From assembly GCF_040436345.1 (NCBI RefSeq), contig NC_133220.1:6698436-6762435 (forward strand): a stretch of DNA of 64,000 bases, in the 5' to 3' direction. Below, one piece after another: positions 8,585-64,000 of this stretch (positions are counted from its first letter, which is position 1; every line of letters begins with the position of its first letter). The DNA comes from Pagrus major (taxonomy: Eukaryota > Chordata > Actinopteri > Spariformes > Sparidae). The translations under genes were made by a program, and so were the position numbers. A model generated the notes under the pieces. That model was not told where the DNA came from and ran no database searches. It saw only the letters and a list, made by a program, of their open reading frames with translations.

Positions 8585-8660
<76 letters not shown>

Positions 8661-13278: not shown

Positions 13279-13315
<37 letters not shown>

Positions 13316-14513: not shown

Positions 14514-14565
<52 letters not shown>

Positions 14566-20500: not shown

Positions 20501-20549
20501 TCTCCTCCATCCTCCCGGACTCGGAATCCGACGACTCTTCGCCCCGCAT
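8298..20549 (-). CDS. rbl1: Retinoblastoma-like protein 1 (p107), complete, 22 coding exons
   Basis: Pocket protein that binds E2F4/5 and forms the DREAM complex to repress cell-cycle genes; nuclear. Exons in coding order: 20549-20388, 17245-17112, 16295-16092, 15892-15828, 15515-15387, 15269-15106, 14925-14861, 14744-14570, 14092-13926, 13431-13319, 13003-12900, 12501-12364, 12176-12012, 11496-11346, 11256-11041, 10778-10576, 10310-10134, 9768-9697, 9584-9497, 9092-8944, 8832-8668, 8492-8298. They sum to 3201 nt and join in frame to 1066 aa, against about 1068 in human p107. Visible: N-terminal cyclin-like half, pocket A and B, the cyclin-binding KRRLF in the spacer (11180-11194), many SP/TP sites, and a C-terminus ending LLKRLQDVVSER plus three residues. 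That ending and the DFDER/EEYVLTVG segment favour p107 over p130 (RBL2). Introns 3 and 21 use GC donors. Microsatellites and MITEs sit in several introns. Confidence 0.97.
8584..8660. repeat. (TG)n microsatellite in rbl1 intron 21
   Basis: About 38 TG units. Read on the gene strand it is a CA tract starting within 10 nt of the GC-type 5' splice site of exon 21. CA-rich RNA next to splice donors is a known binding target of hnRNP L. Confidence 0.9.
9150..9350. repeat. Dispersed AT-rich repeat in rbl1 intron 19
   Basis: Sequence of the type TTAATCAATC...TTAATCGTTTGAGTCA followed by a GGCAAAAAATC block resembles a widespread fish interspersed repeat. A related diverged fragment occurs at about 15590-15720 in intron 4. 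Family assignment is from general familiarity only. Confidence 0.45.
13283..13314. repeat. (TG)n microsatellite at the donor of rbl1 exon 10
   Basis: On the gene strand the intron begins GTACC followed at once by about 15 CA units. Confidence 0.85.
14516..14563. repeat. (TG)n microsatellite at the donor of rbl1 exon 8
   Basis: On the gene strand the intron begins GTAAACG followed by more than 20 CA units. Confidence 0.85.
18756..20020. repeat. Three diverged copies of a repeat in rbl1 intron 1
   Basis: Three blocks beginning near 18756, 19260 and 19576 share GTGGGAT(C/T)AA(A/T)AGTCATCTC, then CAAACAT and a TTTGCAG(A/G)AA block. The first and third also share a distal part (TTGTCTGATG..TTCAGCT...CCTGA.A..TTTTAAT) near 18977 and 19800. 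They are all in one orientation. No protein is encoded. The middle copy is truncated. Confidence 0.65.
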
Positions 20550-20559
20550 TCGTGCAAAC

Positions 20560-20830
20560 TTCCAGTTACACTTTCAGACTAGTTTAAAAATCCACCCCAC
20601 CGTCAAATCCAACACACCAAAACACGACAACACCGCATCGAAACAACACAAGCCAACCCCACGACCGGCGCACTTCCGCTAACCATCCCCACAATGCAGC
20701 GCGTTGGCGCGAAAACTGCTGGGCGGCGACCAATCACAGGCGAGGGGAGCGTCGGTCTCGAGAGCCGTTCGCCCAACCCCCTTCGTCCTGCCTCGTGCTC
20801 CTTCCAGCCAACCGTTACCAAGCAACCGGC
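20560..20830 (-). promoter_or_regulatory. rbl1: rbl1 promoter, CpG-rich, with E2F, CCAAT and X-box motifs
   Basis: The block upstream of the rbl1 start is GC- and CpG-rich compared with its surroundings. It contains TTGGCGCGAAAA at 20704-20715; read on the gene strand this gives TTTTCGCGCCAA, a full E2F consensus. A CCAAT box lies at 20730-20734, and GTTACCAAGCAAC at 20814-20826 fits the RFX X-box pattern with a 1-nt spacer. E2F control of the p107 promoter is established in mammals, so the E2F site supports the gene call. No TATA box was seen. Confidence 0.7.
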
Positions 20831-23373: not shown

Positions 23374-30877
<7,504 letters not shown>

Positions 30878-31657
30878 GGTGGAGGCAGAGATGATGGGGT
30901 GCAGAGATGGAAGATGGAGATATGAATGAATGGAGGAAGGAGAGCAGATAGTGGAAAGACTGAGATAGAGGACAAATATACAGATTAAGAAGACACTCTC
31001 TGGCTGTGCTGAGCAGAGAATGAACAACTGAGTCAATGAGAGGCAGAGAAGTGAAACAGGTGAGTGTAAGATGTCTGAGCACAGTGAGGCATCTCAGGTG
31101 TCTCATGGCCTTTAAGCCTCCCCAGGTGGAGTCAGCGGAGGAGGAGAGAAGCTGGAGCACAAAGAGCCGTGGTGTCGGATATCTATTGTTCTAATCTTCA
31201 GAGAAAACGTAAAGAAGTTACCTGTTTTCTGCTGACTCAGCACATTCAATGGATTAGGAGTCAACCAATATGTTTCTTATTTAATTTTTTCTGGGCCATT
31301 AATGATTATTGATGATCAGGCAGACGGATAACACACATTTGGAAACATTATGAAATGAAAAACTCCAACACAAATTTCAGCTGAAATTCCTTTAAACATA
31401 TATTCATTCAAAATCAGTGCATTTACTCAAGTACTGTACTTAAAAAATCTTCTGGGTTACTTTTCTTGAGTATTTGGCCGATGCCACAGCAGAGTCAAAC
31501 CAGGTCCTCACCAGTGCCCCCTGCACTCCAAAGGACCACCTACAGTCTGATCATTATTCAAGCTTGAGTTTTTGGTCGTTCATACAACACTGTTCAAAAC
31601 AGTCCTTTTGTTACAATCAGTGGAGCCTTTCTATAGTTACAGCACAGACACAGCTTA

Positions 31658-40710: not shown

Positions 40711-43174
40711 ATGAGTGGTTTGGAGAAAGAGGAAGATGGATCAGACTCTCCACTATCGATGAAGAGTGACATGTCCAAACATCATCCTCCAGACTTGAGT
40801 GATGAACCCGGACCCTCAAACACAAAGTAAGACACTGTCTCTGCTGTTGATAAACAGATACATCAGAGCATACTGAATAGCTTTTTGTCCAGAATTAACT
40901 TTTTAAGTTCAGTTTTGAAGTTATACATAAGATAAGATGGAGTGGAGACACCCACACAGTCTGTGATCAAGAAGTACCAAGTTAAAATCATGGAATATTT
41001 TGTTACATAATCCATGAAATGTTTTTCACTTAAAGGGGCACTATGTAGTTTTGAAGAAGTAATTCAAAGTCAGAATTGTATTATTTACAATATTAATGAA
41101 GTTATAACACAAACTCAGAAATATAATATAAAACATATAATATAACAAGCTGTTCTCAGAAGAAAATAAGGTCCCCAGAACACTGTTTGAACCTAGAAAG
41201 GTGGCAGGGTCCGCCACATATAAACGTATGAAAGTAAAACGTATGAAATTGTGTTGTCGTTTTAGGTCAGTTGTTTATTCAGTCATGAAAACAAAGAGTT
41301 TGCTTATTTAGTTTGTTTATCCATAAACAAAAAACAGTCGATAAAGATCTTTCTCTTCTTAACTACATAGTGCATCTCCAAGAAGAATTTTCTCTATTGA
41401 GGAGCAGTCGTCCTGCTGTGGTTTGTGTCAGGACGTCCTAAAGGATCCAGTCTCTACCAGCTGTGGACACTGGTTCTGCAGACAGTGCATCACCTCACGC
41501 TGGGACCAGTCTGCTTCATCAGAGGACTTCTTCTGCCCCCAGTGTAGAAAAAGATCCAGAACAAGACCTGGACTGCAGAAAGCCCGTCAGACCAGCACTG
41601 TACAAGGTAAGATCATACATCTGTATGCAGATGTTATCAGGTCTGAAAACTGGGATTCCTTTGTTGCAACGGTCACGTATTGTGTATGATGAAAATTTAA
41701 AGCTAAGCTGCATTAAAAAAATCTCCATTTCCATCTCCATCGTCATTCTCTCTTCTTTTTATAAATAATTTTTGTTTCGTTGTTGCAAACCAACACCGTT
41801 GATAATTGGATCTTTTTGTTGTCCTACAGGGGACTTTGGTCTGCAGAAGGTTCTAGATGAACATAAAATCAGTCTGAGGAGGAGATATGAACGTGTGAAT
41901 GAAGGAACTGATGAAGCAGGAAGTGGAATCCACTTCAGCAGGATCTACACCGAGCTCTACATCACAGAGGGACAGAGTGAGGACGTTAATACCCAACATG
42001 AGGTGAGGCAGCTTGAGACGGCTTCCAAGATGGAGAATCTCCATGAAACTCCAATCAAGTGCAGCGACATCTTTAAAGCCTCACCTGGCCAACAGAGAAA
42101 CATCAGAGTCGTTCTGACGAACGGTGTCGCTGGCATCGGTAAAACCTTCTCCGTGCAGAAGTTCACTCTGGACTGGGCGGAGGGCTCAGAGAACCAAGAT
42201 GTCAGTCTACTGATTCTGCTTTCGTTTAGGGAGCTGAACTTGATCAGAGATGAGCAGTACAGTCTTCTCAGGCTTCTCCATGTTTTCCATCCAACATTAC
42301 AGAAGGTGACAGCAGAGCAGCTCACTGTCTGTAAACTCTTGTTCATCTTTGACGGCCTGGATGAAAACAGACTTTCACTGGATTTCCACAACAATGAAGT
42401 CGTGTCTGATGTCACACAGAGGTCATCAGTCCACGTGCTGCTGACAAACCTCATCCAGGGGAATCTGCTTCCCTCGGCTCTCGTCTGGATAACTTCCCGA
42501 CCTGCAGCAGCCAATCAGATACCTCCTACATGTGTTGACAGGGTAACAGAAGTACGAGGCTTCACTGAGGCCCAGAAGGAGGAGTACTTCAGGAGGAGAT
42601 TCAGTGATGAAGATCTGTCCAGCAGAGTCATCTCACACATCAAGACCTCCAGGAGCCTCCACATCATGTGTCTGATCCCAGTCTTCTGCTGGATCACTGC
42701 TACAGTTCTGGACCACATGTTGACTACAGACGACAGAGGAGAGCTGCCCAAGACCCTGACTGACATGTACTCACACTTCCTGTTGGTTCAGACAAAGAGG
42801 AAGAAGCAGAAGTATGATGAGGGACATGAGACAAGTCCACAGGAGCTGACTCAGGCTGACAGGGAAGTTCTTTTGAAGCTGGGGAGGCTGGCGTTTGAAC
42901 ATCTGGAGACAGGAAACATCATGTTCTATCAAGAAGACCTGGAGCGGTGTGGTCTTGATGTCACAGAGGCCTCAATGTACTCAGGAGTTTGTACAGAGAT
43001 CTTCAAAAGAGAGTCTGTGATCTTCCAGAAAACCGTCTACTGCTTTGTTCATCTGAGCGTTCAAGAGTTTCTGGCTGCAGTCTACATGTTCCACTGTTAC
43101 ACCAACAGGAACACAGAGGTCCTGCAGGACTTCTTTGATGATGATGATGATGATGATTCATCCATTGTCAGTGG

Positions 43175-43215
<41 letters not shown>

Positions 43216-43228
43216 CATTCATTGTCAG

Positions 43229-43261
<33 letters not shown>

Positions 43262-46200
43262 CGACTACAACAAGAAAAATGACCGTAACTCATCCTTGGA
43301 TAGATTCCTGAGGAGAGCCATGGAGAAATCCTTAGAGAGTAAAAATGGCCACCTTGACCTGTTTGTCCGCTTCCTTCATGGCCTGTCTCTGAAGTCAAAC
43401 CAGAGACTGTTAAGAGGCCTGTTGGGTCGAACAGACAACAGTCCAGAAATCATCCAGCGAGTCATCAAAAACCTGAAGAAAATGAACACGGACGAACTCT
43501 CTCCTGACAGAAGCATCAACATCTTCCACTGTCTGACGGAGATGAACGACCACTCACTTCATAAGGAGGTCCAAGAGTTCCTGAAGTCAGAGAACAGATC
43601 AAAGAAGAAACTCTCAGAGATCCACTGCTCAGCTCTGGCCTACATGCTGCAGATGTCAGAGGAGGTTCTGGATGAGTTGGACCTGAAGAAGTACAGAACA
43701 TCAATAAAGGGAAAACAAAGGCTGCTTCCAGCTGTGAGGAACTGCAGAAGGGCTCGGTTAGTACTGATGTCGTCTGGCAGGGCCAAAGTGTTGTAGAGTT
43801 ATATGTACTGCCTCTTTAGAAACCTTTAGCCTAGCCATGATTTGATGCTGACCATGTTTGCTTAAGATAACCCTTTGACTTCTGACACATTTACTTACAT
43901 TCTCATGTTTACATGACTGTATTGAAAAATACTTGAACTACTTCACTCCACAACAAATGAATTATATGAAAAATTCATTTAAGTTCTAGTACAGTAACAT
44001 TATGCAATTAAGTATCCAGGAGGTCGAAATTCTGCAGCAGTTCTGTTTTGAAAAATCACTGAATTGTTTGTGCAAAGATTTGTTTTTATTAACAGATGCT
44101 CACATTACAATGCAATTGTGATACCAAAAATATATCACGTTATTTTTTATTGTTGTTCTGCATTTCCTGTCATTCACTTTTATGAATGTGTAGTCCATAC
44201 ACGCACCCATGCATACAGGTACATGGGTGCGTATAAAATCACTAATTTCTTTTACACAATCTCTGTATCCGTAGACTCTCTGGCTGTGAACTGTCAACCA
44301 TACATTGCAACATTGTTGCCTGGGCTTTAAAGTCCAACCCGTCTCACCTAAGAGAGCTTGACCTGAGTAACAATTATCCAGGAAACTCAGGAGTGGAGCT
44401 GCTGTCTAATGGTCTTGAGAGTCCACACTGTAGACTGGAGATTCTGAGGTCAGTTCACTTTGTGTGTTACTTTATAGTGTGTGTCTTTAATCTGAAAAGA
44501 TGTGTGTTTTTATGTGAGCAGCAAGTTTTCCATAAAAATGTCTGTTGTGAAATTTATCTTACAGACTCAATCGCTGTGAAATAACAGGGAGCGGGTGTGC
44601 ATCTCTGGGCTCAGCTCTGAAGTCCAACCCCTCCCATCTGAGAGTGCTAGAGCTGAGCAGCAACAAGCTGTGTGATTCAGGAGTGAAGCATCTATGTGAT
44701 TTTCTGAGGAGTCCACTCTGTAGACTGGAGACTCTGAGGTAGAAAATTCATATTGTCTTTAAATTTTAGCAGTGAAATCTCTTCTGCAACAGTAAAAGCA
44801 CCCGAAAGAAAGTTCCTCTTGGTTCCAACCTTCATGTTTCCCATAAATGTGTCTGTTGAGATTCTGTGGGTCATGCTAACTTTGCACTCTCCACCTCCAG
44901 TGCAGAGAAAACTAAACAGCATACATCAGGGTAAGCTGCAAGTGGCTTTCAAAGCGTTTTATACAGCTCACCCTGATATACGTCGTCCTCATATCCCTGA
45001 CTACAATGGAGTGAGTGCAAAGTTGACACGACCCATGGAGCCAAAGTGGAAACATTGTGACGGTTGAAAAGAAGCAGAATTTTCCTTTAATTTATTTGTC
45101 CTTTTATACAGATTGAGACACTGCAATTTGTCAGAGATCGGCTGTGATTCTCTGGTCTCAGCTCTGAAGATTAACCCCTCCCATCTGAGAGAGCTGGAGC
45201 TGAGTGAAAACAAGTTGTGCAATCCAGGAGTCAGAGATCTCTGTGATTTTCTGCTGAGTCCACTCTTTAGACTGAAGACTTTGAGGTAGGGCACCTATTT
45301 CCCTTGTGTATGAAACACTCCTTGCATATAGTGATATATAAAAGTTTATTAAATTCTTTCGCTTTCTGCAGGTTGTCAAAGTGTAGGGTCACACATGAAA
45401 GGTGTTTTTCTCTGGCCTTAGTTCTAAAGTCCAACACTTCCCATCTGAGAGAGCTGGACCTGAGTAAAAATGAGCTGAAAGATTTAGGAGTGAAGCATCT
45501 CTGTGCTGGACTGAAGAGTCCTCTCTGTCACCTGGAAACTCTGAGGTCAGCACTCATTCCTGTCATTCCTCTCTTGTAGATGATCCATCTTCAAAGAACA
45601 GATCCTAATAAATTATTTGTTGTACGTGGAAGTTTCAGTACATTTAATCTTTTATTCATTTGTATCCTGGGAGAGCAGGCTTCAAAGGTGTGAGCTATCA
45701 GAGATCAGCTGTGCTTCTCTGGCCTCAGCTCTGAGGTCCAACCCCTCCCATCTACGAGAGCTGGACCTGAGTGAGAACGAGCTGCTGGATTCAGGAGTGA
45801 AGCAGCTGTCTGATCTTGTGAAGAGTCCACACTGTAGTCTGCAGACTCTGAGGTCAGTAGGGGGTTGGAGTCAGTCCATGCTGATCAGCCCATTTGTTGG
45901 TCTCAGAGGTGATTATTTGGACAGTACAGTTGGCATCCAATCAAAGATCCAGTATTTCCTGGTACCGTGACTGAATTACTAAGAGTTGGAGTTATTAGAG
46001 GAGATTGGAACCTTGAGTTCATTCAGTCATTGATTTTCAGGGGTTCATCCATCCGCGGTATGGATACAAGCTCTGCACAAATGTAATGAGAGCTCCCTCA
46101 AACAGCAAAGACTTCTCTGACAATTCAGAGTGTATGACAGTTGGCAGTAAATGATCAATGTCTTGGTGTTAAGTGTATCAGAAATGTGTATATGCTGTAT

Positions 46201-49200
46201 GTGTAGGTTCTCCAGCGCTGACGGTTCAACTGTCACAGTGAAGTTTAGTGATTCCCCAGGATCCAGCTGTGACCTGTCTAAAGATAGACCTTCAGACGTC
46301 AGTAATGAACCTGGACCTTCAGACACAAAGTAAGAAAGAGTTTCTACTGTAAACTGAATCTGAACTGTTTACACAAAAGAATACAATTCAGTAATGCCCT
46401 TTACTGTAATATAGGGCTTGCCCAAAACCTTTTTAAGCTTCTACTGTTGCATTGGTAATTGAAGTCCAGAGCTGTCTTTGAAAGCTTCTTCTCTTTTCTT
46501 TTTCTTGACATTGCATTGGCTGCACAGAAAAGGGGTAAAAGACTGGTAAAGAGTGAGACATAGAGTTGTTCTATGGCATTTTATTAGTCTTAAAATTTGT
46601 GCTATGATATGCACACACAGAACATTATTTGCAGAGGAAACCCATCCTTGCAAGGTAGCATTTGTGCTCTGGGAGCACAGGACTGTGACAAGTGCAAGCT
46701 CGAATCTACCCACACGCGCTCGTCAAGTTAATATCTGAAGGGTTCAGAGTGTATGACTGTGGGCAATAAATGATTAATTTTTCGGTGTCAGGTGTATCTG
46801 AGTTGTGTTAATACTATATCTCTATCTTCTTCAGCACTGAGGGTTCACCTGTCACGGTGATTGGACACCAGAAGTTTAATGATTCTCCAGGATCCAGCTG
46901 TGACCAGTCTAAAGATGGACCTTCAGACGTCGGTAATGAACCTGGACCTTCAGACACAAAGTAAGAAAGAGTTTCTACTGTAAACTGAGCCGAACTGTAC
47001 AATAATGCACTGTACTGTAATATAGAGCTTACCTGAATGCTTTTAAGCTCCTGCTGTTGCATTGGTAATTTACGTCCAAAGCTTTTCTTCTTTTTTTTTC
47101 TTCTTTGTCTCCTTCCTTCTTCAACTCCTTCTTTTCCTCCTCCTTCTTCTTCTTTTCCTCCTCCTTCTCCTTCTTCTTCTCCTCTTACTTCGTCTTTGTC
47201 TTCCTCCTCTTCCTAGTGACTTTGGTTGTGTCAAATCACGAGTTTTTGTTTAGTGAAGAGAATGCCCCTGAATATGAGGTATATTACATACTTATTACTT
47301 ATCATGAATATATTATATTATTACTTTTCATGAGGGATGATGCTGTATTTGTTCCTAAAGGGTGGGTGACAGAGACACCAGGGCTCCACCTGACCGACAT
47401 GAAGGACGTGAGTAAAATAATATAAAAATCATAACTGTAAGATTGGTGCTGTTTCTTTAATGGCACGAGTTCATTTCAGTGTCCACAGTAGATTTTTTGC
47501 TGCGTTCTGTTCTGTTTTAAATGTTGGGAAAGATGATGTCCTGGAGTTTTGTTGCCTCAATGGAAGAATTCTGTTGGCTTTGAATCTCAGTCTTTGTTTT
47601 GTTTAAATATTATATGGACTTTGCATTGACCCCCTTTCAACCTCGCCTTCACTTAAACATGGCTGTGCTTGGTCTTGAACTGTTTTCTTGATTTCTTTCT
47701 TCATTTTGACTCTAGTGGAGGGTTTTCCAGTAGATTACAACAGGAAACATGGGTAGAAAGACATGCTACAGAGGACCCTGACCAGCTTTGAACTGTGGAT
47801 TTGGCCGTTACAAGTTTATGAATGTTGGATCACCAGGATGTCCGAAAGTTTGACATCTGCTGCGTCTTCCACCCACTAGATCTGTCCACATCTGAGTCAG
47901 ACCTCACTGTGTCTGAGGACATCAGAGAGGAGAGTGAGGATGAAGAGGATCAGCCGTGCCCTGATGATCCAGAGAGGTTGAACCAGCGGCATCAGCTTCT
48001 GTGTGGAGATACACTGAATACAAATGTCAGTTAATCCTGTTTTTTTTATTCATCTGTCAGTGATCAGACTCGGACCCCTCCAGGGTTTAATATTAATTCT
48101 AGTTTCTAGATCGTTAAAACTACTCGCTGCTGTCCAATCCTCTATGTATTCTCATTGATTGGTCCAGTCTAATTAACTAATGTTTTGACATCTTTAACTT
48201 TAGGACAAGCAGATTTTCACACCTGAACTGCTGACTGATTCTGGAAAGACGTCATACAGGTAACCAAATCATGAACGTCAACTCCTGTCAGTGATTCCAG
48301 TTCTACCTGTCTTCTCAACTCTTCTCTGCACTCACACACTTGAGTTGAAAGTTAAACCTTTTCGGTTTAGCTCATGAAGGCACCAGTATTCTTCAGCAGA
48401 TCTGTTTGTCAAATGGTCGGACAGCTTCAGAACCCCCCAATACAAATGTGCAGGTTTTACAGAGGGGAAGATTAAAACATGCAAAACATTTTGTACAAGA
48501 TAAATTAAAATGCAGTGTCTTCAGGTCTTTAATCAACAGATCTTTTGACAACAGTCCGGCTTGTTGTTAACAGCTCCTCTGTGTCCTACAGGTTCAGGTG
48601 TCCTGGTAAAGGTGTGTTCCAGTGTGAATCGACTGGACTGGTGTTTGTTATGGCTCGGGAGGCGGAGCTGCTGTACAGGACTGTCCAATGGGATGAGAAC
48701 CTCCTCTATTCAGATGGCAAGATGGCTGCAGGGCTGCTGTTCGATATCAAGTGTTCAGAGGATGCTGCTGTCTGTCAGCTCCACCTGCCTCACTGTGAAG
48801 TTATGGATGGTAAGGACTTTATTGTGCTGTGTAAATAAAGAGTTTTTTCAGAGCCATGTTAAGTCCTTTTACTGTCCTTTTATTCTTTCAACAGAAAATT
48901 AATTAATTTTGATTAATGAGAATTCTTTAAAGTTACTCCTTAGTAGCCTGATGGTTACAGCACCACGTCTCGACACTAGTTTCCTGTCAGACTCTTGAAT
49001 CCCAAACTGTCCAATGAAAACGAAAATGCCAAGATAAAAAGTATGTATGGTGCAAGAAGAGTGTTCCCAAGGTCACCAAATGCATCAAGATTTGTCATCT
49101 CTGGATCATGAATATTATTATTATTTTTTCTAAATCTCGAACTTTTTTTCTTTTTACTTATTTTATGTAATTTCAATTCATTGTTAATTTTGACTGGCAT

Positions 49201-51029
49201 TCTCTCCAAGCACAACAATTTGCTGAACCTGGGCTACATTTTAATCCTACGACAAGAATCAGTGTCCTGGCCAGTAAAAAGTCAGTAAAATTAGGACTTA
49301 ACTTGTAATGAGGTTGTTATAAGTAAAACGAAAGTTTGACAGCTCTGTGTTTTCACAGCTCCGCTGCCTGAAGATCTGCTGTCTGTCGTCCACATCAGTG
49401 CTGGTAGACCGAGCTTCCTTAAGCCGCTGGAGATTACAGACACTCATGTGGTTGTCAGAGTCTCTCACTTCTCCGCCTTTGGCTTAGTGAAGGATTTTAT
49501 TAAATGGGTTTTGAACAAAATGAAAACAGTTTGTGGCAAAGTCCTGCTGTTCCTCGGACAACCAAACCCAAAAACACAGTGGCGAAAACTCGACGTGTTT
49601 CTCCTGCCGAGGAACATCCATCAGGACGAGGTAAAGCTTCATGTTACAGCTGTCAGTCCAAACTGTTTCACTATTTTCCAGTACCACAAATGTCACGCTG
49701 GATTAGGCAGACTAGATGTTGCAATGGCGTAATGCCGTCCTCCACTGTTAATCAATAATGCTCCTTTTGACAGTTATTTGTATTGTTTTATATAGTCCAA
49801 CACTGTGCTGATATACCATCAGTTTCTTGATTTTAGTTCAGTGATCCAGGTTGAGTAAAGTGCACAGAGTAAAAAACGTTTTCCAGCTCCCAGGTCTTTG
49901 AACAGCTTCTGCATTTGAAGTGAATAATTGTACTGTCATGATGTAATTTTCCCTTTGTTAAAATGTTCTGATGTCTCTTCAGGTGAGCACACAGCAGCGA
50001 TATTCAGAGTACATCCAGGTTCCTTCAAAATGTAAACTCATCAAAGATCAGAGTTACACTCTTCACTGTCCTGAGGCCATTAAAATACAGCCTAAGGTGA
50101 GTATTTAAAATAAAAGTCTGTGTTAGTGCTGCAGCATGCTGACACATCTCATCATTGGACACTATAACTCTGACACTTTGGTTTTCAGAGTGCAGATTTC
50201 GACCTGGAGTTTGGACCAAATTACTACCCAACGTTTGAGGTCCGCCTGAAAACAGCCACAGAAGAAGTGACTTTAACTGTCAAAGATCAAAGACAGATGG
50301 TGGTCTGGGAGCATGACGTTGATCTCACTGGTAAGACTTCATCCACCTGTAATTAATTTTTTGTGCCTTTATTCTTACTCTGCCTCAGATTGTTCTTCAG
50401 TCTGCATTTATCCTGTGCACTGGCGATAGCTGTGACCAGACGCTTATGTTTTCGAGGTTCTCCGTTGTTTTTACACAAATTTTTACACAAACGGATATAA
50501 TGGGATAAAACAAAAGTTGAGGCATTTTATATCCCAAAGGTCAACTTCACTATGAGGTCATGATGTTCTGCAAAAAAGGTTTTGGATCTGGATCTACATG
50601 TTATTTGATACTGGATTAGGCTTGACTCGGAGTTGCCCTCTTCTCCTTAATCTGATGGTTGGTTATCAAAATGTTTATCCCTGATATCTTCCAGATTCAA
50701 GCAGGGGAACTCCACAGATGAATGTCCGAGCAGAGGACGAGGTCCCAGCAGAGGACAATGTGCCGGCAAACGACAAGCTGAGCTCTATTCGGGCAGAGTT
50801 TGTGTCTGGAGTGTCTGGACCTGTTCTGAACCAGCTTCTGGATAAACTTTATCCGGATGTTATAAACAATGAAGAAATGCAGTCAATTAAAAAAAACACG
50901 GTCATACAGGAAAAAGCACGAGAGTTGATCGACACAGTGCGACAAAAGGGAACTAGAGCCAGCTCGGTCCTGATCGCTGCTCTCTGTGAGGTGGATCAGC
51001 ATCTTTCCAGCCATCTGAACTTAAGCTGA
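40711..51029 (+). CDS. NLRP1-like inflammasome sensor: RING, FISNA-NACHT, LRR, FIIND, CARD; complete
   Basis: Cytosolic sensor expected to nucleate an inflammasome and activate caspase-1-type proteases. Coding exons: 40711-40826, 41371-41606, 41830-43756, LRR 44275-44448, 44565-44738, 45112-45285, 45372-45545, 45679-45852, then 46207-46329, 46835-46960, 47361-47407, 47880-48025, 48204-48259, 48592-48809, 49359-49630, 49983-50096, 50189-50330, 50695-51029. All junctions keep frame: 4728 nt, 1575 aa. Residues: RING 55-97; FISNA-NACHT 118-759 with Walker A GVAGIGKT (216-223) and Walker B FDGLDE (about 291-296); LRRs 760-1049; FIIND about 1216-1464; CARD about 1490-1573. FIIND followed by CARD is diagnostic of NLRP1/CARD8 relatives. 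The start at 40711 fits the family; an ATG at 40701 opens an overlapping upstream frame ending at 40769. Confidence 0.9.
41038..41373. mobile_element. MITE with GCACTATGTAGTT terminal repeats
   Basis: GCACTATGTAGTT at 41038-41050 is exactly inverted as AACTACATAGTGC at 41361-41373. The interior is non-coding. An inverted-orientation copy of the family lies at about 60312-60662. The right terminal repeat contains the splice acceptor of the RING exon (AG at 41369-41370). No clear target-site duplication is left. Confidence 0.8.
41371..41606 (+). other. RING-finger exon of the NLRP1-like gene
   Basis: Encodes residues 39-117. All eight zinc ligands of a C3HC4 RING are present: C55, C58, C70, H72, C75, C78, C94, C97, with CGHWFCRQC in the middle and CPQC at the end. 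RING domains of this sort are E3 ubiquitin ligases in TRIM proteins. Similar RING exons occur before FISNA-NACHT in other acanthopterygian NLRs, as far as I recall. Ligase activity is not shown by sequence alone. Confidence 0.85.
41830..43756 (+). other. FISNA-NACHT exon of the NLRP1-like gene
   Basis: A single 1927-bp exon, as is usual in fish NLRs. It encodes the fish-specific NACHT-associated segment (starting [13 protein letters not shown]), the P-loop, Walker B, sensor motif TSRP and winged-helix region ([15 protein letters not shown]). Right after that motif a GAT repeat at 43133-43265 codes for Asp runs interrupted by SSIVSG and SFIVS. The exon ends at an unusual GTTAGT donor. Confidence 0.93.
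43133..43265 (+). repeat. Coding (GAT)n trinucleotide repeat, poly-aspartate
   Basis: About 35 Asp codons in three blocks, residues about 553-596 of the NLRP1-like protein, nearly all GAT. The frame stays open. Strand slippage would change length by whole codons. Confidence 0.95.
44275..45852 (+). other. Five leucine-rich-repeat exons
   Basis: Five exons of exactly 174 bp, all starting and ending in phase 2, at 44275, 44565, 45112, 45372 and 45679. Each encodes two LRRs with the pattern C.L(S/T).[17 protein letters not shown](D/E)LS. The exact 174-bp unit and equal phase show growth by exon duplication and allow skipping without a frameshift. No SPRY (B30.2) exon follows, unlike many fish NLRC3-like genes; FIIND exons follow instead. 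Confidence 0.92.
48592..50330 (+). other. FIIND (ZU5-UPA) exons of the NLRP1-like gene
   Basis: Four exons (48592-48809, 49359-49630, 49983-50096, 50189-50330). ZU5 part: [18 protein letters not shown], then HLPHC. Presumed catalytic His is H1300 in VVHIS and the cleavage pair is F1326-S1327 in SHFSAFG, 26 residues later. The same His-to-Phe spacing is recorded for human NLRP1 (H1186, F1212). The UPA part holds [12 protein letters not shown] and [10 protein letters not shown]. Confidence 0.85.
50695..51029 (+). other. CARD exon of the NLRP1-like gene
   Basis: After a short acidic spacer ([15 protein letters not shown]) the exon encodes a death-fold helix bundle: [21 protein letters not shown], a linker, and [12 protein letters not shown], ending in LIAALCEVD. 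It would recruit caspases or ASC through CARD-CARD contacts. The stop TGA is at 51027-51029. Confidence 0.85.
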
Positions 51030-54740: not shown

Positions 54741-57700
54741 ATGAGTGATTCTGTGAAGGAAGACGAGGACGAGGCTGAGTCTCCAGGATCGAGCCGTCTG
54801 TCTGTGAAGGCTGACGGCTCTAAAGATCATGTTCTCCAAAAAGTTAAAAAACGGTAAGAGGACTGACTAACTCATTCAGTGTTAGCTGATTATATTTTGC
54901 CATTTGCTAAATGTTAGAGTAACATTACGCTTCAGGAATTGAAGAAATACTCTGTCAGACCTCCATATTTTTAAGCAAGTGCTATATGCAGATCTATTTC
55001 ATAATCACAAGCTATAACCAGATCACACATCCTGTTGTTGAGTGTCTCCAGCAGCAGGATTAGCAGTTACTTACAACCCAGACTCCCAAAAAGTTGGGCC
55101 TTTGTGTAAAACACAAGTAAAACAGAATGTGATCATTTGCAATTCTGTTAGCTGCTGTGATCACAACTTTAATTTTGACCCACAAGAAGTTCTCTAGACG
55201 TCTGTGACTGATGTTGAAAATATGTCTAAAATTACATTTTACATTGCTTTAATTTGAATCAGAGAATTTAAGAAGGATTCATGATTTACGAATAAAAATA
55301 TTCTGGTGTTTGCAGAGTTCACTACAGAGAGAGATCAGAGTCTGCAGAGTCCGGCTATGTGTCTATGAAGAGAAACTGGTCACCATACACAAAGTAAGAG
55401 AACTGATACCAACTAATTCAGTGTTTGCTGCAAAATGTTGTGACACAGAGAATTAATTTGTACAACAGAGAGAGACCAGCGTCTGCAGAGTCCGGCTATG
55501 TGTCTACGAAGAGTAGCTGGTCCGAAGAATATTCTCCAATGCTCAGTAATGAACCTGGATCATCATACACAAAGTAAGAGAACTGATACTAACTAATTCA
55601 GTGTTTGCTGCAAAACGTTGTGACACAGAATTAATTTGTCACAACTCCCTCTGAGTGTCTGTGACAGCTGTCACTGACTTTACAAACTTTTAAACCACCT
55701 TATCATCAACAGTAGCAGCACTTTGTGTTTTTAGACGTCTTTAATGACTTTTAGTAGAGAATTTAAGAAGGATTCATGTGTTTATGAATAAAAACATCCT
55801 GGTGTTTGCAGCATTCATTACAACAGACCGAGATCAGAGTCTGGAGAATCTGACTGTCTGTCTGTGAAGACTAACGTCTCTAAAGATCATCCTCCAATGT
55901 TCAGTAATGAATGTTCAGTGTTTGCTGCAAAATGTTGTGACACAGAGAATTAATTTGTACAACAGAGAGAGACCAGCGTCTGCAGAGTCCGGCTATGTGT
56001 CTATGAAGAGTAACTGGTCTGAAGATCATCCTCCAATGTTCAGTGATGAACCTGGATCATCATACACAAAGTAAGAGAACTGATACTAACTAATTCAGTG
56101 TTTGCTGCAAAACATTGTGACTAGGGCTGGGCGATATGGCCTAAAAATTGAATCTCCGATTTTTTCGCACCAAACTCGATTTACGATTTTATTTAATTTT
56201 CTTCCTTCTTAAAAAAAAAAAACTTCAAATGACAGACATTTTTTACAGAACTGCTTTTATTTTTATGCTTAAAAATATCATTTTTGTAATCAAAATGGTC
56301 CTGCCATTGTAAACAGTGTGCACCTTTATTTTGTAAAAATAAATAAAAGCTCTACCTCTTGAAAAAAAAAATGTTTCTCTTGATAACGCTTTTGTAAACA
56401 TATGCTTTTGTAAACATAAATTTAACAGAGGATTGCAGGCTATTACAAAAACATCAATTTCCCCATTAGGATTGATAAAGTGCAAACATAACTTTAATTA
56501 AACACATTTTTTTGTGGATAAATAAGAGGTGCCTTTTGTATACAAAACATATTTTGACATAAGGTGCATGCTTGCTGTCTTTAGTTTCAACATTTTTTTT
56601 TTTTTTTTTACACATTTTTGGCAAGACAAGCCTGTGCACAGGTGAGGCAAGGCAACTTTGGCAAAATACTTGCGGCTTGGTGGCACATACCTGGGGTCCA
56701 ACGTTTTCATCATGTGGATGAACCCCGACTTTTCCACAGTATATATGGGCACCATGTCCACGCTGCATGCATGATTGCATCCGTTACAGCTTTCCACCGG
56801 GACCGTTTCTTGTCATGTGGGATGCAATGAGAAAATGACTCCGCTAAAGTTGACTGCTTCTTTGCGTGTGTTTGTGGGCTGCTGCGGTCTTGTGCATCAC
56901 GTAGAGAACATTTGTCCCACTCTGCTGCATGCTTCTGTCTTAAATGCTGAAATAAATTGGTCGTGCTGCTAGCTTTAGTGGCGACAGGCTTTAAACAAAC
57001 TTTACACCGGACCGTAATTTGTTCGAAGTCGGAACCTTTTTTGGGGACAAACTCCGTGCTTGCGGCCATGTTGCTTGTGTTTGTCTTTCTGAGGGAAGAC
57101 AACGCGGGGGGAGGGCAGAGCCCACTATGAACTACGGGAGCGCATGGGAAGCAGAGGCGGAGAAAATCGATTTTCATTTTTTAAAATCGTCCGAATCCAC
57201 AAACTCGAATTAATCGATTATGTCGATTTATCGCCCAGCCCTAGTTGTGACACAGAGAATTAGTTTGTCACATCTCCCTCTGAGTGTCTGTGACAGCTGT
57301 CACTGACTTTACAAACTTTTAAACCACCTTATTATCGACAGTAGCACCACTTTTTGTTTTTAGACATCTTTAATGACTTTTAGTAGAGAATTTAAGAAGG
57401 ATTCATGTGTTTATGAATAAAAACATCCTGGTGTTTGCAGAGTTCATTACAACAGACCGAGATCAGAGTCTGGAGAATCTGACTGTCTGTCTGTGAAGAC
57501 TAACGTCTCTAAAGATCATCCTCCAATGTTCAGTAATGAACCTGGACCCTCAGGAACAAAGTAAGACAATGTTTTCGTACTAACCTGATAGAAGATGATG
57601 CATCTTTTGTGAAGACAAAATGTTGAATTAAAGTCTTAATGTATTGCATTTAATGCTGAATGTATAAAATGGCACAGATGACTAAGAATTTGCAGCTGCT

Positions 57701-60700
57701 GCTGCGCAAAGTTAGCAGTTTATTAGTGTTAATGAAAGCAGAGGAGCTGAAATAAAAATAAAAAAATATTTTCATTGTAGACTGAATGCTGGATTTCAAA
57801 CAAAAAAGAAAACAGAAACTTTTCTATATTTTTGAAAATGTATTTACTATTTTTATACTTAGCCTATTTATTTTTAAAAACCAATCAACAAATCAGTTCA
57901 GTCAAACAGGACTGTCTCCACAGAGGTACAGAGAGGAGTCATGTTTCTGAAGCAGAGCAGCTGTCTTTGGATAGTGACTTGTCCTTAGATCATGCTATAC
58001 AGATCATCAGGTCCAGTACTGTAACTGGACCCTCAGACACAGAGTAAGACATTTTTTTTTTTTTTTTACTGTAAACTGACCAGAATGAAGATGTTGTGTT
58101 TAGGATGAAGACAAAATGTCCTGCTAAATGATTTATATTCATAATGCAGAACAAGTGCAGAGACTTAAGATGGACTCACTGAATTACTGACACTTATCCT
58201 GTGACAGACAAGAGACTGGTATGAAGGTAACTCCAGCAGGCTTGGAGAGCGTTTCAGAGATCCTTTATTGATTTATTTAAGAAGATGGTTTACTCGTGGA
58301 GGAAAAACTGAATTCAACTTCAAATTCAGTTTGTTACAAAGTAAACCATCTTCCCAAGAAAATCAAGAAAGGATCTTTGCCAATGTTATCACTTTAGTTC
58401 AGTCAGTTCAGTTTTTCCTCCATGAGCCGTCTTTGTAAAGAAATTGTCAGTACTGCATTTTGAATTCAATTGTTGACAGTGAAGGTTCATTTCCATCAAT
58501 TTTCAATGTAACATAGGAATTCTGTAACTAAGCAACCGACCACAGAGATTATTCTGAAATGCTGTTAAATAACTCGTCTGGAAGGTGATTATTTTTCACC
58601 CATGTACATGTGGACTAGGCCTTAGTACCTCTCATTAAGTCTCCCTCTAATGATCATTCTTTCTCTCACTTGAGTCAAATGCTTGAAAGAGAAATGTATA
58701 CATATTTAAACTCTCTCACTAAGATTTTCTCTCCTTTCCCTCCAAGGAAGTACACAGTGATCATTCAGAGATATAGGGATGATTTCTGCACCTTGTACAG
58801 TGAGTACCAGCGTCTGCATGCTCAGTTAAAGGACATCTCAACTAAGCTTCAAAATGAGCTTGAAAAACAGGTCCAACAACTCAAAGAAAAGAAGAAGGTA
58901 GATTCCCCAAAAGATGCACACAAATCTGTTCTTTGTGTTCCACAATACCTTGATTAAAAAGTGCCCCATTATATTTTAGTATTTGAAAATACAAAAGGTA
59001 ACGACTCTCAAGTATTTTGATCATCATGTATCTGAGTACATTATCAGATTGTGACTGTGCTTTTTCATATCCCTTTTAGACTTATCCGAACTATACTCAA
59101 GAGAGGAAACGCCTTGAAGATCTGCACAACAAAATGGAAAATATAAAGAGAAGTATTGCCATGTACGATCTAAGTCATCTTAGGCAATTCTTACCACTCG
59201 GCAGCCATCCTGGCAACGTCAACAGGGCTCCACCTGACAGACGTGAACAACGTGAGTAAAAGCCTACAGGAATATCGTAAAGAAACTTAAACTGTTATTA
59301 AAGTGTAACTGTAAGATTGGCTGCTGTGTGTTAGTGACACTCGGTGATTTCAGCAGCAGATCTTTTGCGTTGTTTTCTTTTCTGTTGGGAATGATGATGT
59401 CTTGTATTTGTTTTGCCTCAATGCTTATTAGGGATTGAATCTCTCTTCTTTGTTAATTTACTTTAATTATACAGTGTGGACTTAAATTTGCATTGACCCC
59501 CTTTGGACCTTGTCTTGACTTAAACATACCTGCACTTGGCGTTAACTTTTTACTTGATTTTCTACATGTTGGCTTTATTGGAGGGTTTGCCAATAGATAA
59601 CAGCTTTGAACTGTGGACTTGGCTGTTAGAAGTTTATGAATGTTGGGTCACCAGGATGTGTGAAAGTTTGACATCTGCTGTGTCTCCATCCCCTAGATCC
59701 ATCCACATCGGAGTCAGACCTCCCTGTGTCTGACAACATCAGAGAGGAGAGTAAAGAAGTTAAAGTGGAGCAGATGTGTCCTGATGATCCAGAGAGGTCG
59801 AACCAGCAGCATCAGCTTCTGTGTGGAGAGGCTCAAAATACAAATGTCAGTTTGTCACATTTTTAAACTGGGGTTTCTTAGTTTCACCACAGAGTTTAGT
59901 ATTCATTACCTCCTGCATTCTGTCCATCACAGTCCTGCAGGCTTCACTTGTGCAGGATAATTTCACTGAATGATAATAATATTTTTAACCAGGGATAATG
60001 AACTGATGAATAAATATGAAGGAGTGCATATAGACTAAACTGTACGTAACTGGGAGAGTTGAGCTGCAGTCTTTACCCCCATCTCAATGTGTTTTAATTA
60101 ACTCTCCCATCCAGTTTAATTAACTAATTTTGTGACTCTCTTCATTTTAGGACAAGCAACATTTCCTACCTGAACTACTAACTGAGTCTGGAAAGACATC
60201 ATACAGGTAACAACACATCAAATGCTCTATAAGAAATGTACTACAGAGCGAGATTAGTGGATTAGCGAGGTATGTTGAATCTATTCTGTGTCACAAACCT
60301 GGCTCTCTTTTAAAGGTTCACTCTGTAGCTTTGGGGAAGACATTTTAATCAGAAGAGAAAGATCTTCAGTGACTTTTGTTTACGCCTAAACAAACTAAAT
60401 AAACAAACTCTCTTTGTTTTAATGACTGAATAAACTGAATAAACAAACTGACCTTAAAGGACAACACAGTTTCATAATGTTTAACTTTGTTGATATGTGG
60501 CGGACCCTGCCACCTTTCTAGCTTCAAACAGTGTTCTGGGGACCTTATTTTCCTCTGAGAACAGCTTGTTTATTCAGTTATGGAATAAATATTTCTTAGT
60601 TTGTATTATTAACTCAATAATGTAAATATTATAATACTGAGTTCGAATTTCCTCTCCAAAAATGAGATATTACATATACATTTAATCTAGAGAGATCACC

Positions 60701-63700
60701 ATGCTAATTTAAGATGCAGACATAATCTGGTCCAGATTATGGAGCTCAATCAGCCCTGTAGTGTATAAATGTAGTGTAATTCCTCCAAACGTTTCCACTG
60801 TGGATTATGTTTTTATGCTTGGTCCTGATTTGCTGAAGTCTGATCAGTCTCTTGGCATTTATCACAGATAATATTCAGTCAATGAAAGTAAACAGATTAC
60901 TACATATACCTCAATGTGTGACTGTCAGACCTGTTTGAAACTCTTGAGTAGAATATGTGAATATGCTTTATCAAGTTTACAGTTTAAAGGCTCAGAATGT
61001 GCACAGAGCCTGAAAAAGAAAGACTGGGTTAACAAAGCAGATTTATAAATACTATTTATTATTACAGAAGATTTATTTATTTACTATTTGTTACCTGTAA
61101 TCCATGACTGAGGTTTCAGGTTTTGTAGAGCCAACTCATGCAAAGAAAGCCTGGCAATGTCGATCCTGCTTAGTGGTACAGGGAACTAGTTGACTCCTTT
61201 CAGTACTTCACCTCCTTTCAACATTTACAGTTCATTTGAAAGTTCAACCTTTCCAGTTTAGCTAATTTCTTGCATTTAAAAAATTTGTGGTGAACTTCTG
61301 TCTGTTGGACGATGGGATAGTTTTCAGTGTGAGCAGAAAAGTTGCAGGTTGTGCAGAAAGGAAGATTTAAACATGTAAAACACAACGTATATGATGAATA
61401 AAAAAGCCAAGCATCTGCACGTCATAACAGATCTTTTGACGACAGACTGGCTTGTTGTTAACAGCTCCTCTGTGTCCTAAAGGTTCAGGTGTTCTGGTCC
61501 AGGTGTGTTCCAGTGTGATTCGACTGGACTGGTGTTTGTTATGGTTCAGGAGGCGGAGCTGCTGTACAGGACTGTCCAATGGGATGAGAATCTCCTCAAA
61601 TCAGTTGGCAAGATGGCTGCAGGGCTGCTGTTCAATATCAAGTGTTCAGAGGACGCTGCTGTCTGTCAGCTCCACCTGCCTCACTGTGAAGTTATGGATG
61701 GTAAGGACTTTATTGTGCTGTGGTAATAGAGTTTTGTTAGATTAGTCCTTTTACTGCCCCCTACAGGCTGCAGGGGTCATTACAGCCACAGTCTGAACAA
61801 ACAACATCCTGATGATTTATAAGTTCTTAAGGTGTGGTGCAGTAGTCTCATCATATGTCCTTTCTTAACCCTGATCGAAACAAAAAGGAAGCTCAAGTCG
61901 TGATGTGAAGGAGATTTCATCAGGAGAAACAAAAAGACAACTGCTGTGCTGAGAGAATCTGACTGCCCTTCATTTTTCATTTTGCACGGAAGTTGTGAAT
62001 TTTTTTACTGTGACATTAAGTATGACTGAAACAATTAGTTCATTATTTTTCCAACAGGAAATTTATTTTGATTAGTGTTAATGCATTGAAGTTACCTTTC
62101 AGGCCCATCGACTCTTCACTGCCAAACTGTGAAACAAAGAAGAAAATGCCCCCAAAAACTAAAAATGTACTTTTCAAGCAAAACTGGATGGTGTTAGAGG
62201 AAAGTTCACATCCACCAAATTTGTCACAACTTATCGTCTGAATATCATTTTAAAAAATAAACTATTTTCTTTTCATTTATTTTGCACAATTTTCAGTTAT
62301 TTTTAATTTGGACTAGCAGTCAATTTATCTTCCCCTTGTAGGAGCAATGACACAGTCAGTCACCGACTTCCCATCCTCCATCACTGAATATGTGTTCAAT
62401 AAATTGCTCAACCTGGACAACAGTTGTACAAAGAATCAGCTCAATGTTCTGGAAAACTCAATACAATTAGGACTATAGTTGTAATGAGCAAAAGTTTGAC
62501 AGCTCTGTGTTTTCACAGCTCCGCTGCCTGAAGGTCTGCTGTCTGTCGTCCACATCACTGGTGATGGAATGAACGTCCTGGAGCCGCTGGAGGTTACAGA
62601 CACTCATGTGGTTGTCACAGTCTCTCACTTCTCTGCCTTTGGTTTAGTGAAGGATTTTATCAAAAGGTTTTTGAACAGCAACAAAATGAGACCAGTTAGC
62701 GGCAAAGTCCTGCTGTTCCTCGGACAACCAAACCCAAAAACACAGAGACAAAAACTCAACGTGTTTCTCCTGCCGAGGAACATCCATCTGGACGAGGTAA
62801 AGCTTCATGTTACAGCTGTCAGTCCAAACGTGTCTCCTAAAGGACAACTTTACAATATGTCTTAAAACAACAGTAATATGTTCATATGAACGCTGAGCAG
62901 CATGTTCTTGCTGTAGTGATTTCTCCTGTTCATACTGGATGTTAAGAGATCCCTACATAATGTTCTTTCAACGTATGTGATGGAGGATAAATTTCACTGC
63001 CCCTCCACTGCAGCTCAACAGGGAAACCATAAGAGGGAATTTAAGGCAGAACAAACTGTCGTGTTATTCATTTTGTTTTGATAACGGATCATTAAAATAA
63101 TTTGCCACATTCACTTGTAAAAGCAGAGCAAGCAGCTCCTAGCTGCTCTCGTGTCTTGAATATCTGAAGTGAGTGGACTCTGATGTTTCATATTTTCTTT
63201 ATTTTTTAATGAATGTATTGGTACTGAAGAAAGGATCGTTCAGAAACCAGTATCGAAGTCAAGGTACCACTATCGAGAGTGTTTTGAACGATTCCCAGCC
63301 CTAGTTGCAGCCCCACTCTACTGATGCAGTATATGATGGTACTTGGTGACCTACAAATACACTGATACTGATTTATCTGTGATGAGATATAATTGGCCTG
63401 TTAATGTCAGGCTCTACTGAGGAGAAACGGTTTACATGTTAAAATGTTCTGATGTCTCTTCAGGTGAGCACACAGCAGCAATATACAGAGAACATCCAGG
63501 TTCCTTCAAAATGTAAACTCGTTGAAGATCAAAGTTACAGTCTTCACTGTCCTGAGGCCATTAAAATACAGCCTAAGGTGAGTATTTGAAACAAAAGTCT
63601 GTTAGTGCTGCAGCATGCTGACACAACTCATCATTGGACACTATAAAGATTCTGACACTTGGTTTTCAGAGTGCAGATTTTGAGCTGGAGTTTGGACCAA

Positions 63701-64000
63701 ATTATGACCCAACGTTTGAGGTCCGCCTGCCTACAAACACCGAAGAAGTGACTGTAACAGTCAAAGATCAAAGACAGATGGTGGTCTGGGAGCATGACGT
63801 TGATCTCACTGGTAAGACTTCATCCACCTGATGGAACAACAGAGAGGAATAGAATAGATTTGAAGCGGTGATGTTGAAGGGTGTGTGTTGTCTCTGATGC
63901 ATTCAAATCTGAAAGGATGCAGTGAACAGTCCAGAATAGACCTCATTAACATTTGGTGCCGATGCAGATAAATGGACAGATGCAGGAATGTTTTCCTCAC
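54741..64000 (+). CDS. OCEL-FIIND protein, NLRP1/CARD8 relative without NACHT; 3' end beyond window
   Basis: Coding exons: 54741-54853, 55316-55393, 55469-55573, 55966-56070, 57441-57560, 57924-58043, 58747-58897, 59080-59251, 59697-59845, 60151-60206, 61483-61700, 62519-62796, 63464-63577, 63670-63811. They join in frame to 1921 nt (640 aa) and the last ends in phase 1, as the exon before the CARD exon does in the neighbour. Residues: acidic N-terminus; repeated linkers such as ASAESGYVSMKSNWSED; OCEL domain about 214-297; spacer DPSTSESDLPVS; FIIND 390-640 with H474 and F500-S501. There is no NACHT or LRR between 54741 and 61483. A CARD exon is predicted past 64000. It may signal like CARD8, with OCEL as bait or partner-binding module; that is inference. 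The ISRE upstream suggests interferon induction. Confidence 0.78.
55811..55925 (+). pseudogene. Broken linker exon of the OCEL-FIIND gene
   Basis: The first 110 bp match the linker exon at 57441-57560 almost exactly, including the TTTGCAG acceptor. After AGTAATGAA the sequence jumps directly into intron sequence TGTTCAGTGTTTGCTGC. The exon end and GT donor are deleted, and reading on meets a stop. Splicing must skip it, which leaves the frame intact. Confidence 0.8.
56124..57243 (-). mobile_element. hAT transposon, internally deleted, with BED-finger transposase remnant
   Basis: The ends TAGGGCTGGGCGATA and TATCGCCCAGCCCTA are inverted. Flanks ATTGTGAC (56116-56123) and GTTGTGAC (57244-57251) form an 8-bp target-site duplication with one mismatch, and the unoccupied form of this site is seen in the paralogous introns nearby. 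On the minus strand 57177-56710 encodes a BED zinc finger (CKVCLKPV...NLFQHLRQKH). After a frameshift, 56760-56600 gives VPIYTVEKSGFIHMMKTLDP, typical of ZBED-like hAT transposases. Most of the catalytic domain is missing, so it cannot move by itself. It sits in an intron of the OCEL-FIIND gene. Confidence 0.9.
58258..58376. repeat. Foldback hairpin in an intron
   Basis: AGATCCTTTATTGATTTATT with AAGATGGTTTAC at the left pairs with GTAAACCATCTT and AAATCAAGAAAGGATCT at the right. A second pair (GGAGGAAAAACTGAA and TTCAGTTTTTCCTCC, near 58297 and 58406) is nested. Probably a small MITE. Confidence 0.7.
58747..59251 (+). other. OCEL (occludin/ELL) domain exons
   Basis: Two exons (58747-58897 and 59080-59251). 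The peptide KYTVIIQRYRDDFCTLYSEY, then RLHAQLKDI, then PNYTQERKRLEDLHNKM and IKRSIAMYDL follows the ELL pattern (tyrosine-rich start, QRY.DDF..EY..LHA, NY.QE..R.E.LH.K, IKR.IA.YD). The middle, about 20 residues in ELL, is shorter here. In ELL and occludin this domain is an antiparallel helical hairpin that mediates protein contacts. Confidence 0.82.
60312..60662. mobile_element. MITE, second copy of the 41038-41373 family, inverted
   Basis: Reverse complement of the element at 41038-41373: it shares AGAGAAAGATCTT, AACAAACTAAATAA, GGCGGACCCTGCCACCTTTCTAG, GTTCTGGGGACCTTATTTTC and the end region. The terminal repeats are more decayed (CACTCTGTAGCTTTG). It lies in the intron before the FIIND exons. 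Confidence 0.75.
63230..63310. repeat. Transposon end fragment
   Basis: CAGTATCGAAGTCAAGGTAC.. then TTTTGAACGATTCCCAGCCCTA resembles the terminal part of a common fish hAT-type element. Only one end was found. Confidence 0.45.

Follow-up and report, generated by a model that had tools for sequence, protein, structure and literature searches.

An OCEL domain of ELL origin in the place of NACHT-LRR in a predicted NLRP1/CARD8-type gene of Pagrus major, and a related gene with an RBL1/p107 pocket

We analyzed a 64,000-nucleotide stretch of the genome of the sparid fish Pagrus major (hereafter the window; contig NC_133220.1, labeled C6, positions 6698436-6762435), the whole analysis covering this one genome of 786 Mb in 25 contigs. 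At the end of the window lies a predicted gene, copy A, whose product runs in frame from N-terminal repeats through an OCEL (ELL/occludin) domain to FIIND, UPA and CARD domains. It belongs to a cluster that also holds copies B, C and E, a related gene D, and an NLRP1-like neighbor, gene N. Comparison at the DNA level establishes the domain content of copy A and the ELL origin of its OCEL domain, with the splicing predicted. On balance, we favor reading the gene as an NLRP1/CARD8-type inflammasome sensor that has an OCEL domain, captured from an ELL gene, in the position of NACHT-LRR and uses it as an integrated decoy.

Copy A is modeled as 15 exons on the plus strand (54741-64485 in window numbering) with GT-AG borders and compatible phases throughout, coding for 746 amino acids (aa). 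Exon 1 (54741-54853) supplies the start codon (ATG) and an acidic N-terminal peptide (MSDSVKEDED...) and leaves through a GTAAGA donor in phase 2. Four N-terminal repeat exons follow, two with GT-AG borders and phase 2 at both ends (55316-55393 and 55469-55573) and two taken from the exon model (55966-56070 and 57441-57560). The second of the four, about 35 aa long, resembles by eye the N-terminal repeats of about 30 aa in fish NLRs (PMC4852459). A linker exon (57924-58043), with counterparts in B, C, D and E, then leads into OCEL exon 1 (58747-58897), which matches PF07303, codes for a shortened helix α1 and shows homology, extending into about 45 bp of the intron upstream, with the first OCEL exon of an ELL-type gene on contig C11. 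OCEL exon 2 (59080-59251) carries helix α3, matches PF07303 and has homology to both the C11 gene and N, its 3′ end being fused to a stretch common with N. Two further linker exons come next, namely the acidic mid1 (59697-59845; identity 66% in N and 86-92% in B, C and E) and mid2 (60151-60206; 83% in N, 72% in D and 100% in B, C and E). FIIND (ZU5) is split between exon a (61483-61700) and exon b (62519-62796), the latter bearing the cleavage block, in which a conserved histidine precedes the serine of the motif SHF/SAFG by 27 residues. The UPA exons (63464-63577 and 63670-63811) are followed by the last exon, which codes for CARD and the stop codon and lies past the window end (64166-64485 in window numbering; L010 2602-2921).

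All four domains exceeded their Pfam cut-offs in the spliced product: OCEL (PF07303) at residues 221-294 with 40.9 bits (cut-off 31.2), FIIND (PF13553) at 383-512 with 151.4 bits for its two exons jointly, UPA-FIIND (PF23679) at 522-637 with 109.8 bits, in a match covering the two UPA exons and the last part of FIIND exon b, and CARD (PF00619) at 663-744 with 67.9 bits. The best relatives in the PDB are NLRP1 (residues 330-740) and CARD8 (326-744), with the OCEL domain of ELL2 over 221-296. A Pfam scan of the 746-aa product detected neither NACHT nor LRR, both of which occur in open frames of the neighbor N. An earlier note, made from the letters of the window, had described an in-frame chain from linker exons through two OCEL exons into a complete FIIND with self-cleavage residues, had suggested a profile search of the spliced protein and had looked to a CARD exon within about 1 kb past 64000. 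The exons that it named are present with matching phases, the profiles agree, and the CARD exon is where it was expected; the repeat exons beginning at 55316, 55469, 55966 and 57441 are additions to its list. As a separate observation, an intron between repeat exons holds what appears by eye to be a short mobile-element-like insertion (56123-57243) with a BED-zinc-finger-like open frame on the minus strand.

The same OCEL-mid-FIIND-UPA-CARD series was recovered in frame in B, C and E by tblastn over 150 kb and homology-guided exon models, A and B being on the plus strand and C and E on the minus strand, so the cluster holds at least three further OCEL-FIIND genes besides copy A. The exon-model script demanded open, phase-matched exons, and the continuity of frame is therefore partly by construction; despite this, the splice sites mostly lay no more than a few bases from where they were expected. 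Because B, C and E share this exon series, a chance order of exons is very unlikely. Repeat exons were modeled for A only; among the other three copies, spliced B and E were scanned with Pfam, giving OCEL scores of 79.9 and 69.9 bits, respectively. Some oddities are apparent: the linker exon of C ends differently at its 3′ side, the first exon of E has a different end, and the CARD exon of E lacks the usual stop and extends a few codons further. Between A and B, ahead of the start exon of B itself, a start exon and a repeat exon (L010 7400-8470) may represent a remnant or alternative first exons.

Gene N (41363-51029, plus strand) sits just upstream of A and combines RING, FISNA-NACHT-WH-HD2, LRR pieces, repeats, mid exons and FIIND-UPA-CARD, with Pfam matches in six of the seven open frames scanned; its FIIND-UPA-CARD part was recognized by homology and FIIND also by profile. 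Its mid, FIIND, UPA and CARD exons are 66-89% identical to those of A (74-89% for the FIIND, UPA and CARD exons). The joins between its LRR and FIIND exons are predicted from order and phase.

A genome-wide search with PF07303 returned 29 exon matches, five in the cluster and 24 in 12 other OCEL loci. In none of these 12 did tblastn of the 8-10 kb around each locus detect FIIND, UPA or CARD, and by position no FIIND match lay near them among the at least 56 genome FIIND matches listed. The ELL-type locus on C11 aligns over about 550 bp with all five cluster copies at 68-79% identity, in one piece for B, E, D and A and in two pieces for C. The aligned block takes in about 45 bp of intronic sequence, then OCEL exon 1, the small middle exon with the introns around it, and OCEL exon 2 to the stop codon. 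As introns were copied, the capture occurred at the DNA level, which rules out a retrocopy. Occludin and MARVELD2 are likewise ruled out as sources, given the introns in common with the ELL-type gene and an approximately 1.6-2.3-fold advantage of ELL2 in PDB bits: the C11 domain scores 137 against ELL2, 72 against MARVELD2 and 59 against occludin, and the OCEL domain of B scores 80, 50 and 37, respectively. The occludin tail at tight junctions, which the earlier note had offered as an alternative target, is not supported on these grounds. Pfam assigned no family to the exon beside the C11 OCEL. This preceding exon carries a motif known from ELL, and the gene name ELL for C11 rests on the OCEL match and this motif.

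The breakpoint is also visible. In A, B, C and E, OCEL exon 2 runs past the end of ELL homology, near the ELL stop, into sequence matching N upstream of mid1, and uses the same donor, GTGAGT. By these matches, the exon is a fusion of ELL and NLRP1-like sequence. Taken with the exon phases, the alignments show an OCEL domain placed in compatible phase between the N-terminal repeats and the mid-FIIND-UPA-CARD exons common with N, and later duplicated. It is very improbable, to our mind, that copy A is instead two adjacent genes, one with OCEL that stops short of mid1 and another with FIIND-CARD beyond it. While each of the four copies checked has three to seven AATAAA/ATTAAA motifs in the interval from OCEL to FIIND, as AT-rich DNA would also yield, the exon phases are continuous in four copies, OCEL exon 2 is itself fused to sequence from just upstream of mid1 in the NLRP1-like neighbor, and in B the gap between OCEL and FIIND is only 1020 bp, with two exons inside it. 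The phases and the four copies support a single predicted gene with OCEL in the place of NACHT-LRR, as had been proposed.

A second host domain, arguably more striking than OCEL, sits on the same chassis in gene D (minus strand, C6 about 6809185-6794436, from homology-guided exon models). D keeps the first two of the three OCEL exons but has a broken OCEL exon 2, and homology revealed no mid1. Between OCEL and mid2 lie twelve retinoblastoma-like pocket exons (C6:6805644-6799836, minus strand; L014:5479-5645 down to L013:9837-9985), which join into 581 residues free of stops, entering in phase 0 to fit the OCEL exon and leaving in phase 0 to fit mid2. The predicted product of 1110 aa scores 273 bits for RB_A, 191.5 for RB_B, 148 for FIIND, 107 for UPA, 65 for CARD and 33.7 for OCEL, the last against the same cut-off as above. 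Among PDB proteins the pocket comes closest to RBL1/p107, with 499 bits versus 216 for RB1. Its parent is the RBL1 (p107) gene within the window itself (minus strand, approximate limits 8298-20570), recognized by RB_B at 10110-10325, by open frames and by blocks matching gene D at 89-96%; Pfam gave no family for the first RBL1 exon. Between the pocket of D and its parent, 39 of 1743 exon bases differ with no indels, as against 172 of 3479 intron bases and 51 indel events. Free drift of D at half the rate of indels seen in the introns predicts about 13 in the exons, a figure inflated by microsatellites in the introns. The dN/dS ratio is 0.32; both this ratio and the exon indel count include constraint on the parent RBL1. 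The spacer sequence AKRRLF of the parent, which we take to be a cyclin-binding motif, reads PKQHLF in D. Adjoining RBL1 is an intermediate filament gene whose head region resembles that of type II keratins (24297-31093, minus strand), its filament score exceeding the cut-off in one of the two pieces scanned.

Both NLRP1 and CARD8 undergo self-cleavage at SF/S, a reaction in which the second serine plays a part, as do His-252, His-270 and Glu-279 of CARD8 (PMC3210808). The spacing of 27 residues from histidine to serine, together with F/S, is retained in six of the six FIINDs of the locus and is the same in human NLRP1 and CARD8. The residue before F at the cut is H in five of the FIINDs and Q in copy C.

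NLRP1 is activated once pathogen proteases cut its front half; positive selection acts on the linker there, and a decoy function has been put forward (PMC5142783, PMC11781737); in fishes, NLRP1 and Gbp4 signal through ASC (PMC9978379, PMC4932187). Under the integrated-decoy reading that we favor for copy A, the ZU5 part would cut itself between F and S, as in known FIIND biology, and the front half would stay attached and hold UPA-CARD silent. A pathogen factor that recognizes the ELL surface might then cleave, mark or destabilize the front half, whose degradation would free UPA-CARD to recruit ASC or a caspase. OCEL would thereby serve as an integrated decoy for factors attacking ELL or the super elongation complex, and gene D as one for factors that bind p107/RB pockets. 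DNA tumour viruses make LxCxE proteins that attach to such pockets. Within this model we are more confident that sensing falls to the captured domain than we are of the pathogen target, which is guesswork. An integrated decoy should carry a domain derived from a host protein, and this is what was found, by intron-level homology to ELL in the OCEL copies and by the RBL1 copy in D.

Sequence change in the OCEL domain bears on this reading from both sides. Intron divergence among the four copies A, B, C and E is 1-11% (K 0.010 to 0.114, from local alignments, which favor similar stretches). Nonsynonymous differences per site in OCEL amount to 11.5-17.4% in five of the six pairs and 4.4% in A-C, and exceed the divergence of flanking introns in those five pairs (p from 1.2 × 10−4 to 9.7 × 10−12), with A-C at p 0.34. 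Codon maximum likelihood with one ω per tree gave 2.2 for OCEL (2ΔlnL 5.8 against ω of 1), and 2.8 with ELL added (14.5); the null fixed κ at its free estimate, so these and the following 2ΔlnL values are upper bounds. UPA yielded an ω of 0.6-0.7, not significantly below 1 (2ΔlnL 0.5). We also placed single-base changes relative to ELL in columns ungapped in all five sequences (about 197 nonsynonymous and 49 synonymous sites), excluding 14 positions with more than two bases. Changes common to A, B, C and E number 24 nonsynonymous and three synonymous. Private changes (nonsynonymous/synonymous) are 8/0 in E, 3/3 in B, 1/2 in A and 0/1 in C, with 6/4 for A and C jointly, and the ambiguous patterns are 4/0 for ABC, 3/0 for BE and 1/0 for BCE. 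Thus, rapid amino-acid change of OCEL on the stem and in E is supported by these counts but not proved.

Several results weigh against the decoy reading of copy A. First, OCEL is more divergent than the introns at synonymous sites too, and this holds for every one of the six pairs, if barely for B-E, and most clearly for A-B (15.2 vs 3.2%), B-C (17.6 vs 3.6%) and C-E (11.2 vs 3.2%), and in A-B, A-C and B-C it exceeds the nonsynonymous divergence. Because synonymous sites surpass the introns too, the excess must come partly from older or recombined exons or from conversion of introns, and we gave up selection alone as its explanation. Second, pairwise ω for OCEL is 0.65-0.79 in A-B, A-C and B-C, reaching 1.6-2.5 only in the three pairs with E, and Fisher tests of nonsynonymous versus synonymous change gave p of 0.07 to 0.89 among the copies, with 0.012 for E-ELL. 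Third, fast change is not confined to OCEL: ω is 1.7 for FIIND (2ΔlnL 2.4; 2.2 with D and N, 9.5) and 1.7 for CARD (2.8). Fourth, the lineage of the window copy (AC, A and C) shows seven nonsynonymous and seven synonymous changes; the fast change in OCEL is located in E and on the stem (the ELL branch being the alternative to the latter), with the window copy's own lineage looking constrained. Fifth, and less clearly, in an ungapped alignment the place of CARD8 Glu-279 is taken in copy A by leucine, with a glutamate one residue later; the cleavage residues of CARD8 are S297, F296 and H270, and its Glu-279 raises the efficiency of cleavage (PMC3210808). Finally, the 15-codon middle OCEL exon, coding for helix α2, is kept in B, D and E, persists as a remnant in A and is absent from C. 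A and C have thus lost α2 along with part of α1 and would not form a three-helix arch. The earlier note's decoy idea draws indirect backing from OCEL being a fast-changed ELL copy (ω > 1) and from the sister gene with a p107 pocket, and is weakened where it concerns the window copy itself.

Some of these observations would also fit a young cluster of decaying fusions, in which an accidentally captured OCEL domain drifts without function. The ω values near or above 1 in several domains, the shortened A and C, the odd linker end of C, the altered first exon of E and its missing usual stop, the loss of OCEL exon 2 and mid1 from D, and an excess over introns that need not be selection all point that way. 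Nevertheless, we regard such decay as rather improbable: long frames remain open in A, B, C, E and D, seven nonsynonymous to seven synonymous changes in the A/C lineage on sites numbering 197 to 49 indicate constraint, the ω of UPA is low (subject to the significance given above), and the RBL1 copy has no exon indels where drift predicts about 13 on the microsatellite-inflated estimate.

The surface by which ELL2 binds AFF4 offers a further comparison. The structure of the ELL2-AFF4 complex defines the contact positions, and α2 forms part of the groove for an AFF4 helix (PMC5290273), so the window copy is without a helix that contributes to this groove. We took 27 contact positions from this paper; in the 5jw9 sequence, with H559 as the start of numbering, its Tyr596 and Ile599 are Y597 and I600, which is the numbering used here. 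Residues as in the C11 domain are kept at 12 of the 27 positions in A, 16 in B, 12 in C and 15 in E. These positions are no more conserved than the rest of the domain (Fisher p 0.82 to 1; 0.82 for A and 1 for B), a further point against the decoy reading. Kept in all four copies are Y552, Y555, Y607, E615, H618, N619, K625 and D632, central residues of the concave surface of ELL2. On this comparison, contact-site conservation neither supports nor excludes mimicry of the ELL surface. The retained concave-surface residues, the apparently constrained lineage of the window copy and the intact pocket of D suit a scaffold, whereby OCEL or the RBL1 pocket would localize or oligomerize the sensor, for example through AFF1/4 or other ELL partners, with sensing left to the repeats or to DPP9-like control of FIIND. 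This seems unlikely to us, though less so than decay, in view of an overall OCEL ω above 1, which is unlike a stable partner-binding scaffold, the loss of α2 in two of the four full fusions and the lack of preference for contact sites among the residues kept.

Set against known systems, copy A shares with NLRP1 the FIIND (ZU5-UPA), the F/S block and the C-terminal CARD, and the adjacent N has the NLRP1 architecture, which in fish is NACHT-LRR-FIIND-CARD (PMC9978379). It differs in that its front half is an ELL-type OCEL domain, with no NACHT or LRR in the predicted product. CARD8 is likewise FIIND-UPA-CARD without NACHT-LRR. Its front half is disordered, whereas that of copy A is a folded host domain. 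CARD8 is triggered by a viral protease cutting the front half (PMC11781737). Zebrafish Gbp3 and Gbp4 also place a non-NACHT domain ahead of FIIND-CARD (PMC4932187), though this is an immune GTPase and not a captured piece of another pathway. The earlier note left these two out of its list of known FIIND proteins; as FIIND is among their domains (PMC4932187), a non-NACHT front half is not new in itself. FIIND is, in addition, fused to TRADD-N in some animals (PMC8195603). With respect to the donor, the C-terminal OCEL of ELL/ELL2, three OCEL exons are kept in B and E and the first two in D, whereas the cluster domains are detached from the ELL body, have quickly diverged and are shortened in A and C. 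The closest parallel in principle is the integrated decoy of plant NLRs, for example with WRKY domains, in which a host-target domain is fused into an immune receptor as bait (PMC5142783, PMC11781737); here, by contrast, FIIND-UPA-CARD takes the place of NB-LRR as the chassis, and release would follow from losing the front half. Mammalian NLRP1 and CARD8 have also been described as integrated decoys (PMC5142783, PMC11781737).

FIIND occurs in further settings in this genome. At C19:27003434-27055558, at least eight FIIND matches lie in long open frames of 606-1491 aa in single-exon genes; the one read (L034) has a long repetitive N-terminus followed by FIIND-UPA-CARD-like sequence and is CARD8-like by eye. 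At least ten FIIND loci stand in tandem at C17:25129593-25339813 (L035 for one gene). At C11:291001-295000 (L036), a FIIND exon lies downstream of an open frame that resembles by eye a death-fold or CARD domain, which is another architecture. GBP was rejected as another FIIND front half here, none of 20 PF02263 matches being near a FIIND match among those listed.

What seems new is the presence of two unrelated host domains on one FIIND-UPA-CARD chassis at one locus, FIIND with other front halves being already known. A search of the open-access literature (mostly titles and openings of abstracts) returned no report of an OCEL-FIIND or RB-pocket-FIIND protein, and an open-access search likewise gave no animal sensor with a recognizable captured piece of a host protein as its front half. 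We therefore put forward, tentatively and with less assurance than the decoy reading of copy A, that the locus is a decoy-capturing site, in which the chassis has taken up domains of ELL, from the transcription elongation machinery, and of the p107 pocket, from the cell-cycle machinery, that intracellular pathogens disable, as inflammasome tripwires multiplied and reshaped by duplication and selection, like plant NLR sites. The donor, the breakpoint, the phase and the later change are all readable from the DNA. If the proposal is true, the captured domains would reveal which host pathways are under attack by fish pathogens, and nature would have supplied in this chassis a template for bait-swap sensors. 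The locus suggests that animals may, as plants do, attach the targets of pathogens to alarm proteins as bait; if confirmed, the integrated-decoy principle would reach beyond plants to the inflammasomes of vertebrates, in a form open to direct test.

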